A DNA stretch of 64,000 bases from Gemmatimonas sp. GTDB lineage: Bacteria > Gemmatimonadota > Gemmatimonadetes > Gemmatimonadales > Gemmatimonadaceae. The notes under the pieces are model-generated. The model saw only the letters and a program-made list of their open reading frames with translations, was not told the DNA's origin and searched no databases. The first letter of the stretch is position 1; each line of letters starts with the position of its first letter. A program made the position numbers and the translations under genes. Where the stretch lies: NCBI RefSeq assembly GCF_021298855.1, contig NZ_JAJTHI010000015.1, forward strand, positions 1 to 64,000, given 5' to 3'. Below are positions 1 to 2,493 of this stretch, piece by piece.

Positions 1-1387
1 CCGGCTCTGACCCCGGCTCTGACCCCAGCTCTGACCCCAGCTCTGACCCCGGGAAGGTTGGGGTGGCCCAGGCGCGGGCGGCGGCGGCGTGTGCCGGCAG
101 TCCCTCGGCGTCGGCCAAGCGCCCCACATCGTCGCTCAGCAAGGCGGCCGCCCCGGGGGTCACTTCCTGCCACGTGGTCCAGCGCACGAAGTCGAGGGTG
201 CTGAGCCCCGAGTAGCTGCGCCCCGCCCCGGCGGTGGGGAGGACGTGGTTGGCCCCCGTCATGTAGTCGCCGTAGGCCACACTGCTCGACGCGCCCAGGA
301 AGATCGTGCCGGCGCTGCGCAGCGCCGCGAGCGTGGCGTCGCGCACCTCGTCGCGCACCAGCAGCAAGAGGTGTTCGGCGGCCCACACATTGGTGAAGGC
401 AATGGCGTCGTCCAGCTGCGGTATCGTGACGATCGCGCCCCGCTCACGCAGCGACTGTTCGATCACTGCGGCGCGCGGCGCCACCGCGATCTGCCCTGCC
501 AGCGCCTCACGCACGTGCACCGCCAGCGCATCCACATCCTCGCCAGCCAACACCGCGATCACGGCGGCGTCGGGATCGTGCTCGGCCTGCGCCAGCATCT
601 CGCGCGCAATGGCCACGGCATCGGCCGAGGCGTCGGCGAGCACGAGCAGCTCGCTCGGGCCGGCGGGCGCATCGATGGCCACGCGGTGCACAAGCTGCAG
701 CTTGGCCTCGGCCACGTAGGCGTTGCCGGGCCCCATGATGCGATCGACGCGCGGCACACTCGCCGTACCCAGCGCCATGGCGGCAATGGCACCGGCACCA
801 CCAACGGCGAACACCCGGTCCACGTTGGCCAGCGCGGCGGCGGCCAGCACCACCGGCGACGGCATGCCGTCGGGCCCCGGAGGCGAACACACGATCACGT
901 CCTGCACCCCCGCCACCCGCGCGGGAATGGCGCCCATGAGCAGCGAACTCGGATAGGCGGCGCGTCCGCCCGGCGCATAGATCCCCACCCGTTGCAGCGG
1001 GTCCGGCCGGCGCCCGACCGTGATGCCGGGTTCGGGGGAGCAGACGGTTTCCACGGGGCGAAACGCCGCGTGCACGGCGGCGATGTTCCGTGCGGCACGC
1101 TCGAGGGACACACGCAACGCGGGGTCGAGTGAGGCGAGCGCGGCGTCCCAGGCGCTGCGCGGTACCTCGAGGGAGGTGAGCGTCACGCGGTCGAAGTCGC
1201 GGGCGAACTGGAACAGCGCGTCGTCACCACGCTCGCGTACCTGGGCGATGAGGGCGGCGGAGCGCTCGCGCACGGTGCCGTCGGTCGTGGACGAGCGGTC
1301 CACGATGGCACGACGCGTGGGGGCATCGAGTGACGCCAGGGCCCCGAACGCCCGCAACGGCACGGAGGCTTCCAACGACGTGCTCAC
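1..1387 (-). CDS. hisD: Histidinol dehydrogenase HisD (3' end outside window)
   Basis: Catalyses the last two steps of histidine synthesis, NAD-dependent oxidation of L-histidinol to histidine. The GTG start (1387-1385) overlaps the hisG stop as GTGA, so the two genes are translationally coupled. All expected active-site elements are readable: the Q and H zinc ligands in LAQAEHDP, the catalytic E-H pair in NVWAAEHLLL, the D and H of GDYMTGANH, and the C-terminal zinc His in AEGLPAH. The frame stays open through the left edge after about 462 codons, whereas the family normally ends shortly after AEGLPAH. The surplus tail is proline/threonine-rich and then becomes a 12-bp tandem repeat encoding GSEL/GSEP units. 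No stop lies in the window. Confidence 0.95.
   Translation of the reverse strand, partial: MSTSLEASVPLRAFGALASLDAPTRRAIVDRSSTTDGTVRERSAALIAQVRERGDDALFQFARDFDRVTLTSLEVPRSAWDAALASLDPALRVSLERAARNIAAVHAAFRPVETVCSPEPGITVGRRPDPLQRVGIYAPGGRAAYPSSLLMGAIPARVAGVQDVIVCSPPGPDGMPSPVVLAAAALANVDRVFAVGGAGAIAAMALGTASVPRVDRIMGPGNAYVAEAKLQLVHRVAIDAPAGPSELLVLADASADAVAIAREMLAQAEHDPDAAVIAVLAGEDVDALAVHVREALAGQIAVAPRAAVIEQSLRERGAIVTIPQLDDAIAFTNVWAAEHLLLLVRDEVRDATLAALRSAGTIFLGASSSVAYGDYMTGANHVLPTAGAGRSYSGLSTLDFVRWTTWQEVTPGAAALLSDDVGRLADAEGLPAHAAAARAWATPTFPGSELGSELGSEPGSEP
5..52. repeat. 12-bp tandem repeat at the 3' end of hisD
   Basis: Four consecutive 12-bp units of the form CTCTGACCCCRG are visible. Read on the minus strand in the hisD frame they encode repeated Gly-Ser-Glu-Leu/Pro. 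The array continues to the window edge, so the copy number is unknown. It lies beyond the conserved end of HisD. Confidence 0.8.
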
Positions 1388-2262
1388 GGCACGAGCCTCT
1401 CGATGCGCGTGACCAGAATGCCCTCGCCGCCAAGGGCCCGCAGCTGCGAGATGGTGCGATAGATGGTTGCGGCGCTCACGACGGCGTGCACGGCCACGTA
1501 TTGCGAGGATTCGGCAATTTCGATGACCGTAGGGCCGTTGAGGCCCGGCAGCACCTCCCGCACCTGATGGAGCGCGGCGCGCGGGACGTTGGCCATGAGG
1601 TAGCGCTGCCCGCGCGCCCGGATGACCGACGCCAGCGCGGTCACGAGGTCGTCGAGTTCCTGCCGGCGGTCGGCGGCGCCGTGGCGCGGCCCCCCCTCCG
1701 CGGTGATGAGGTGTGCGCTCGAGCGCAGAACGGTTTCGATCTCGCGCAAGCCATTCACGCGCAGGGTGCTGCCGGTGGAGGTGAGATCCACGACCACATC
1801 GGCGATGCCCAGGTGCGGCGCGATTTCGGCAGCTCCCGACACCGGGACCACATCTACCGGCCGGCCGGCCTGCTCGAAGAAGCGGCGGGTGATGTTGGGA
1901 AAGACGGTGGCCACGCGCATGCGCTGCCCATCCTTTCCGATATCGGCCACCGCGCGAATACCCGAGTCCTCCCGCGCGGCCACCACGAGGCGGCACCGGC
2001 CGAAGCCGAGGTCGAGGTGGGAGGTGAGGGGGCGTCCCGATTCGTTCACCAGGTCCCAGCCGGTCACGCCCACGTCGGCGGCGCCGTCGGCCACGAACTC
2101 GGGGATGTCCTGAGCGCGCACGAAGATGGCCTCGAACTCCCCGCCGAGGGAAGCGGTGAGGGCGCGCTCGCCGGACGAGCGGACTTCGAGTCCGGCGTCG
2201 TTGAAGAGTTCGCGGGTGTCTTCGGAGAGGCGCCCCTTGTTGGGGAGGGCGATACGGAGCAT
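1384..2262 (-). CDS. hisG: ATP phosphoribosyltransferase HisG, long form
   Basis: First committed enzyme of histidine synthesis, condensing ATP and PRPP. The start is the ATG at 2262, giving MLRIALPNKGR, which is the family N terminus; a longer upstream reading would run back towards the terminator. The PRPP-binding segment is visible around LTSTGSTLRVNGL. At 292 residues it is the long, hexameric form with the C-terminal ACT-like regulatory domain (last ~75 residues), so feedback inhibition by histidine is expected. It follows a leader peptide and attenuator and overlaps hisD by 4 bases. Confidence 0.96.
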   Translation of the reverse strand: MLRIALPNKGRLSEDTRELFNDAGLEVRSSGERALTASLGGEFEAIFVRAQDIPEFVADGAADVGVTGWDLVNESGRPLTSHLDLGFGRCRLVVAAREDSGIRAVADIGKDGQRMRVATVFPNITRRFFEQAGRPVDVVPVSGAAEIAPHLGIADVVVDLTSTGSTLRVNGLREIETVLRSSAHLITAEGGPRHGAADRRQELDDLVTALASVIRARGQRYLMANVPRAALHQVREVLPGLNGPTVIEIAESSQYVAVHAVVSAATIYRTISQLRALGGEGILVTRIERLVP

Positions 2263-2311: not shown

Positions 2312-2340
2312 AAAAAAGGCCCGTCCGGTAGGGACGGGCC
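2312..2340 (-). terminator. his attenuator terminator hairpin
   Basis: On the minus strand a perfect 9-bp GC-rich stem (2332-2340 with 2318-2326, 5-nt loop) is followed directly by six T (2312-2317). It lies between the leader peptide stop and the hisG start, so it ends transcription before hisG unless disrupted. Confidence 0.9.
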
Positions 2341-2405
2341 GCAGGTCGCCGTGCGCGGGGACGCGGAGTGCTTACCCCATCACGCACGAAGCGCCCCGAC
2401 CCGTC
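2318..2405 (-). promoter_or_regulatory. Transcription attenuator of the his operon (alternative pairings)
   Basis: Directly after the His codons the leader RNA carries CCCGAC-GG-GTCGGG (2395-2408 region), a self-pairing 1:2 hairpin. Its downstream half, GACGGGUC (2398-2405), can instead pair over 8 bp (one G-U) with GGCCCGUC of the terminator's promoter-proximal arm, forming an antiterminator. A ribosome stalled on His codons would cover segment 1 and favour the antiterminator. The pairings are seen in the sequence; the mechanism is inferred from the enterobacterial his and trp leaders. Confidence 0.8.
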
Positions 2406-2455
2406 GGGCCGTGGCTGTGGTGCGCATGATGGTGGGCGGTGCGGACGGCAGGCAT
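2372..2455 (-). CDS. hisL: his operon leader peptide HisL
   Basis: A 27-residue frame starting at ATG 2455 and ending at TAA 2372. Residues 8-15 are HHHAHHSH, six histidines in eight residues. It ends 31 bases before the terminator hairpin that precedes hisG. Enterobacterial HisL has seven consecutive His; here the run is interrupted by Ala and Ser. It acts as the sensor of charged His-tRNA in attenuation. No clear Shine-Dalgarno precedes it, and the predicted transcript start lies only a few bases upstream, so translation may be nearly leaderless. Confidence 0.85.
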   Translation of the reverse strand: MPAVRTAHHHAHHSHGPTGRGASCVMG

Positions 2456-2464
2456 AGTCGTGAG

Positions 2465-2493
2465 ACGGTAGCAGGCTCGAGGGATGGCGTCAA
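2465..2493 (-). promoter_or_regulatory. Predicted sigma-70-type promoter of the his operon
   Basis: On the minus strand TTGACG (2493-2488) and TACCGT (2470-2465) are separated by exactly 17 bp. The -35 is near consensus and the -10 is weak. The expected start would fall about 3-5 bases before the HisL ATG. Confidence 0.5.

Follow-up and report, generated by a model that had tools for sequence, protein, structure and literature searches.

Upstream of hisG and hisD in a Gemmatimonas sp. lies an element that is, with high confidence, a ribosome-mediated transcription attenuator of the hisG-hisD operon, sensing charged His-tRNA. The window analyzed here is the whole stretch of 64,000 nucleotides at the start of contig NZ_JAJTHI010000015.1 (assembly GCF_021298855.1), and the features of the element are collected in Table 1. 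All parts of the attenuator, their conservation, the covariation of the terminator, the complementarity of the competing strands and the genomic link to his genes are seen directly; from these we infer the start site, the stall, its timing and the response to histidine.

Table 1. Features of the his leader region and operon in the 64-kb window.
Feature	Position	Strand	Basis
-35 box TTGACG of the leader promoter	2488..2493	-	sequence; most relatives have TTGAC 34-40 nt ahead of the leader ATG
-10 box TACCGT	2465..2470	-	17-nt spacer to the -35 box; ends 9 nt before the leader ATG
Predicted transcription start zone	2455..2460	-	placed from the -10 box; 5' UTR of ~0-5 nt, no Shine-Dalgarno
Leader peptide ORF (hisL), 27 codons, MPAVRTAHHHAHHSHGPTGRGASCVMG	2372..2455	-	translation
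Regulatory His codons HHHAHHSH	2411..2434	-	translation
Segment 1 GGCCC, 5' strand of a local hairpin that would sequester segment 2 without a stalled ribosome	2406..2410	-	fold, alignment
Segment 2 GACGGGUC, antiterminator strand within the leader ORF	2398..2405	-	pairing
GUG-rich ORF end	2375..2387	-	predicted pairing with the His codons (free RNA) or 2351-2360 (stalled-ribosome fold)
Segment 3, terminator 5' arm GGCCCGUCC	2332..2340	-	pairing, covariation
Segment 4, terminator 3' arm GGACGGGCC	2318..2326	-	pairing, covariation
Terminator T6 tract	2312..2317	-	sequence
hisG, ATP phosphoribosyltransferase	1384..2262	-	TIGR00070, E 1.9e-64
hisD, histidinol dehydrogenase; open at the contig end	2..1387	-	TIGR00069; 4-nt overlap with hisG

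The first-pass annotation had described a 27-residue leader containing HHHAHHSH, a terminator consisting of a 9-bp stem and six T, and a segment beyond the His codons able to pair with the terminator's 5' arm over 8 bp, and all three descriptions were borne out. The leader is a minus-strand ORF (2455-2372). The terminator, GGCCCGTCC-CTACC-GGACGGGCC-TTTTTT (2340-2312), has a stem (2340-2318) of 9 pairs, 8 of them G-C, around a 5-nt loop. Located 5 nt past the last His codon, GACGGGUC (2405-2398) complements GGCCCGUC (2340-2333) over 8 bp with one G-U. The leader exceeds what chance would give: among the ATG ORFs of up to 60 aa on both strands of the window, no other has at least six His in nine residues, and this one has a terminator behind it. 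Because hisG and hisD overlap, they are read as an operon, which continues up to the end of the contig. Upstream, the leader is flanked by a divergent gene whose plus-strand ORF starts at 2636; thus, the terminator cannot end an upstream transcript.

In the proposed mechanism, the transcript would begin with the leader AUG itself or only a few bases away from it, and a ribosome would load on the 5' end without a Shine-Dalgarno sequence. With plentiful charged His-tRNA, the ribosome would clear the His codons and segment 2 would be covered or refolded with segment 1; once segment 2 is occupied, the 3:4 hairpin would form and end the transcript ahead of hisG. Under a shortage of charged His-tRNA, the ribosome would instead stall on one of the first His codons, covering only the upstream side, so that segment 2 would be free to pair with segment 3 (the terminator 5' arm) and RNA polymerase would continue into hisG-hisD.

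RNA helices were tested on a class-wide alignment of 29 sequences (A2) against 500 shuffles. In the terminator helix, 96.9% of the cells are paired and five of the nine pairs have changed on both sides, values of which neither was reached by any of the 500 shuffles. The antiterminator formed by segments 2 and 3 is paired in 88% of cells, as against 30-49% in slid registers, and the local hairpin GGCCC-GAC-GGGUC, which would hold segment 2, is 94% paired. Covariation in the antiterminator is weak because segments 2 and 3 are nearly invariant: 160 of 500 shuffles score as high, as do 51 of 5000 permutations across 104 loci, the latter uncorrected for the relatedness of the loci. Compensated changes were found at L082 (A-T to G-C) and L103 (G-C to A-T); L100, a congener of L103, carries a G-U intermediate at an antiterminator pair, and L107 is a weaker candidate. 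Within segment 2, 101/104 loci have G as the third base of a Thr codon, which the pairing requires, and the segment starts 5-8 nt past the His run in 72/104. The pairing excludes the terminator and is positioned just past the regulatory codons. When segment 2 was set against the 5' arm in dinucleotide shuffles of single loci, 30 of 106 reached p ≤ 0.05, a weak result explained by the GC-rich DNA. The fold of the single leader sequence is only mildly more stable than shuffles (z -1.85) and was left out of the evidence.

In folds predicted for the window sequence, the GUG-rich ORF end has the His codons as its pairing partner in free RNA, and under a stalled ribosome it pairs downstream within an extended antiterminator. 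The predicted mean probability of upstream pairing of the 5' arm is ~0.80 with a ribosome on His codons 1-3, 0.65 in free RNA, 0.68 with a ribosome at the stop codon and 0.45 with one five codons past the last His; in this model, holding the ribosome at the stop codon gives nearly the value of ribosome-free RNA. Masking the second His codon with a ribosome gives a shift of ~5 kcal/mol towards antitermination in 94-96 of the 104 loci. Once the 3' arm is included, the terminator is favored at equilibrium even with a stalled ribosome (P ~0.8-0.9), and the equilibrium model alone yields no antitermination. Therefore, the model needs kinetic control, as in classical attenuators, and the narrowing by ~5 kcal/mol is what a kinetic switch would need rather than a demonstration of one.

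The first-pass annotation had made its reading depend on conservation of the leader peptide in relatives, and a comparison of hisG upstream regions across the phylum agrees with it. Among 395 genomes searched, 272 carried hisG; the comparison covered 133 upstream regions with a length of 300 nt or more, with genera and families labeled as anonymous groups (f1 being the family of the window). A His-rich leader precedes hisG at 71/73 loci in f1, 70 of them with a terminator, and at 6/6 in f4, 21/24 in f5, 6/11 in f2, 3/5 in f7 and 1/1 in f8; the terminator stems carry compensated changes, and leader and terminator occur together in most Gemmatimonadetes families. No His-rich leader was found upstream of hisG in f6 (0/5), f11, which belongs to another class (0/6), f3 (0/1) or f9 (0/1), and the leader was undetected in the family members L044 and L086. 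His-dense ATG ORFs (at least five His in nine residues) in the 133 regions number 98 in sense and 0 in antisense. The interrupted His run is normal in the phylum. Loci with a different HisG type (e.g., L131, L133 and L121) also have His leaders; their terminators are quite different, which suggests repeated turnover of the RNA part of the element. At another locus (L432, G092:C210:21753), a near-duplicate second His leader stands before hisC-hisB-hisH-hisA-hisF, the other half of a split operon, as if copied together with the operon split. The weak His-rich ORFs of L297-L299 and of L132 were put down to chance.

Two perfect palindromes (2533-2552 and 2555-2570) lie between the divergent hisL and plus-strand promoters. 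The first, TTTGTGAA-CTTA-TTCACAAA, is shaped like a CRP-family site (TGTGA-N6-TCACA); of 22 members of the genus, 18 carry it at ~-80 to -95 relative to the hisL ATG. The second is CTGCAGGGCCCTGCAG, and GCAGGGCCCTGC-like palindromes of this type occur at ~-100 to -117 in many of the 22. Searches of Rfam with the window and 14 other loci gave no match at the gathering threshold, including to RF00514 and the T-box, and neither of these two families matched in the window at E up to 10. Sub-threshold matches to sRNA families were rejected, being far below gathering and resembling generic GC-rich terminators. These observations bear on an alternative in which the His ORF is incidental and the operon is controlled by a T-box, a riboswitch or a DNA-binding regulator. 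In other phyla, his genes are indeed regulated by T-boxes and the HisR repressor (PMC9413887), and the conserved palindrome pair stands 78-115 bp upstream of the leader ATG. Given the empty Rfam result and the strict sense orientation of the His ORFs, together with palindromes that only close relatives share and that may act on the divergent gene, such control with an incidental ORF is scarcely credible.

The promoter of the attenuator abuts its reading frame. Across 108 loci, a promoter with at least 8/12 matches and a -10 box 5-10 nt from the start codon is present in 81, compared with 0.9% of dinucleotide shuffles; TTGAC starts at -34 to -40 in nearly all of the relatives that have it, and no Shine-Dalgarno motif precedes the leader in 99/108. 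The same promoter scan of E. coli K-12 hisL returned only weak candidates, 38 and 48 nt away. A start 6-7 nt past the -10 box would put the 5' end 0-4 nt from the ATG. The placement of the -10 box and the missing Shine-Dalgarno motif thus make it probable that the leader peptide is leaderless, with little or no 5' UTR on its transcript.

The specificity of this layout was assessed by scanning the 395 whole genomes of the phylum with the pattern TTGAC-N28-34-ATG-N6-30-HHHxHH. Of 51 matches, 45 precede hisG by 121-227 nt on its own strand, and a reversed-pattern control gave one match. The other six include further attenuators, namely a His leader before hisC-hisB-hisH-hisA-hisF (split operon), a His leader before another HisG type, and an off-frame match to a Thr leader, MTNAAIRTTGTTTTTTTRLTGRGRECLRR, which precedes an aspartokinase gene; the match in G184 looks like chance, and two more are in G283 and G318. 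Gene names other than hisG at these loci were taken from the translated sequence rather than from family searches.

The same layout with five consecutive His codons, in a query that did not include hisG, was sought in 84,980 genomes and found in at least 118 stretches. At least 45 of the matches are short ORFs (≤40 aa) with HHHHH, at least 32 of which have hisG within 3 kb downstream. Phyla, which represent a sample rather than a full survey, were taken as stated in the sequence records; among the matches listed, the 32 linked to hisG include 11 from Acidobacteriota, seven from Spirochaetota, four from Planctomycetota, three from Gemmatimonadota, two from Eremiobacterota and one each from Chloroflexota, Ignavibacteriae and Gammaproteobacteria. 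One further hisG-linked match among those listed is presumably from Spirochaetota, judging by its name. For most of the hisG-linked leaders in this cross-phylum set, a strong terminator comes no more than ~50 nt after the stop codon of the leader. At least six more matches, mostly from Hyphomonadaceae (MNTxLHHHHHHA), stand before two long ORFs read as HisS and HisZ, with hisG ~2.8 kb downstream in all three genomes checked. Leaderless peptides of this type, 11-12 aa long, occur at L199, L220, L268, L270 and L279 (Hyphomonadaceae and other Alphaproteobacteria) in hisS-hisZ-hisG type operons. No strong terminator was recognized at these five loci, and the mechanism there may therefore differ. 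A locus assigned to Candidatus Sulfopaludibacter (L255) has a Hyphomonadaceae-like leader and operon and is probably on a misbinned contig.

As a promoter-independent check, regions upstream of hisG were drawn from three phyla. Nine of ten plausible leaders in Acidobacteriota have leaderless spacing (the genome from the pattern scan being excluded). In Planctomycetota, a leader is present in 7/28 loci and six of the seven are leaderless (one from the pattern-scan genome); one Planctomycetota leader has a GTG start and a promoter 24 nt away. Two Spirochaetota samples contained no His leader (0/30 and 0/20), and the element is thus confined to some members of that phylum. This sampling bears on the reading that the attenuator is real but starts further upstream, with a 5' UTR and initiation independent of a Shine-Dalgarno sequence. 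Such a start would suit the 27 of 108 loci that lack a strong promoter match and the gap between -10 box and ATG, which varies from 5 to 10 nt, and the start site itself is read from sequence. We consider it rather unlikely, since TTGAC with TAnnnT 5-10 nt before the ATG recurs without a Shine-Dalgarno motif in the proportions given above, leaders found via hisG rather than via the promoter show the same spacing in two other phyla, and the E. coli hisL control lacks it.

The attenuator resembles the enterobacterial his attenuator (E. coli and Salmonella hisL, RF00514), in which a short ORF with His codons, alternative pairings and a Rho-independent terminator likewise precede hisG-hisD. It differs in its trp-like 1:2 / 2:3 / 3:4 scheme, with the antiterminator strand within the leader ORF right after the last His, in its interrupted His run, and in a promoter that abuts the start codon and makes the leader probably leaderless. 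The his-attenuator reading of the first-pass annotation is supported by conservation, with one correction: where the promoter sits implies that the leader peptide is leaderless, unlike that of E. coli. Descent from the proteobacterial attenuator, whether vertical or by transfer, would account for the same gene, logic and amino acid. It is unlikely in view of the missing RF00514 match even at permissive thresholds, the lack of leaderless geometry in E. coli, and terminator and post-His sequences that differ between phyla and even within them. The element would work like a his attenuator but stand outside RF00514, and convergence appears likelier than common descent because sequence and layout differ from the proteobacterial type.

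Attenuators of his genes are known in gammaproteobacteria and predicted in some Firmicutes (PMC9413887, PMC2965389, PMC4833913). The predicted Firmicutes attenuators, e.g., of hisZ/hisS in the B. cereus group and in Peptostreptococcaceae and Erysipelotrichales, likewise combine a His-rich leader, terminator and antiterminator outside Proteobacteria, but belong to another phylum and often target hisZ/hisS, with no leaderless feature described in the accessible text (PMC2965389, PMC9413887). The proposal that the mechanism is extended beyond, or converged upon outside, Proteobacteria consequently holds for a new lineage, with convergence likelier, while a first departure from Proteobacteria had already been predicted in Firmicutes. 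Leaderless leader peptides have been described in Actinobacteria: those for Leu, Trp, Ile/Val, Met and Thr, with LeuL, TrpL and IlvL of S. lividans among them (PMC8079986; C. glutamicum ilvBNC, cited in PMC4046766), and mycobacterial Cys-rich uORFs of leaderless or RBS-less type (PMC4633059). These are likewise predicted or shown to lack a 5' UTR or ribosome binding site before amino-acid genes, but concern another phylum and other amino acids. No report of a leaderless His leader was found in the literature searched, nor a paper combining leaderless initiation with his attenuation or treating attenuation in Gemmatimonadota, in a search that did not extend to subscription papers and preprints.

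Leaders for other amino acids were also observed. In family f6, two leaderless Thr leaders, MTNAAIRTTGTTTTTTTRLTGRGRECLRR (L434/L438, G311) and MTSAAICTTCTTTTTTTRVTGRGRECLRR (L439, G379), precede an aspartokinase gene of thrA-like type; these loci have a terminator, GCGGCCCGTGA...TCACGGGCCGC, and share a TGRG-type antiterminator motif with the His leaders. A Thr-run pattern gave four matches (one site twice) in 300 genomes versus six for the reversed pattern, so the two leaders are supported by genomic context and not by a significant count. About 410 nt ahead of leuA, L152 (G079) has a candidate leaderless Leu leader, MQRHAVLLLTSALGRLIGRGLSCLGGRSE; its promoter and start read TTGACC-17-CAAACT-7-ATG, and a GC-rich terminator comes after the leader. 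A candidate branched-chain leader, MFPTVSRLLSLIPAIGTVVLVSVVRVLVGTREGRRVAIA (L157, in the window genome, G000:C46), ~300 nt upstream of ilvB, is followed by a strong terminator-like hairpin, with no promoter recognized. No leaderless Trp leader was found in the trpE upstream regions of eight genomes.

His-rich peptides bind metals. Together with leader RNAs and peptides that can act in trans (peTrpL, PMC7298713), this would favor a role in trans for the terminated leader RNA or the peptide, as a small RNA or metal-binding peptide, with the terminator merely ending the transcript. That role is very improbable, as the peptide varies in its N-terminal half while segment 2 is fixed at the nucleotide level, His-rich short ORFs precede hisG, hisS or hisC across phyla, and a Thr-codon counterpart within the phylum precedes an aspartokinase gene.

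The element brings ribosome-mediated his attenuation into a phylum in which gene regulation has hardly been studied, and the leaderless form is pointed to in at least six further phyla. There is about an even chance that leaderless leader-peptide attenuation is common across many phyla outside Enterobacteria, having arisen repeatedly with unrelated terminators and been overlooked on account of its tiny ORFs and missing Shine-Dalgarno sequences, and that Gemmatimonadota reuse one architecture with the sensor codons swapped (His for hisG/hisC, Thr for thrA). For genome-wide attenuator searches, a promoter set directly against a short ORF with many codons for one amino acid offers a cheap and specific pattern. 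The pairing of a 70S-initiated leaderless ORF with a terminator also raises the question of how ribosome loading at the 5' end would be matched to the pace of RNA polymerase over only ~130 nt.
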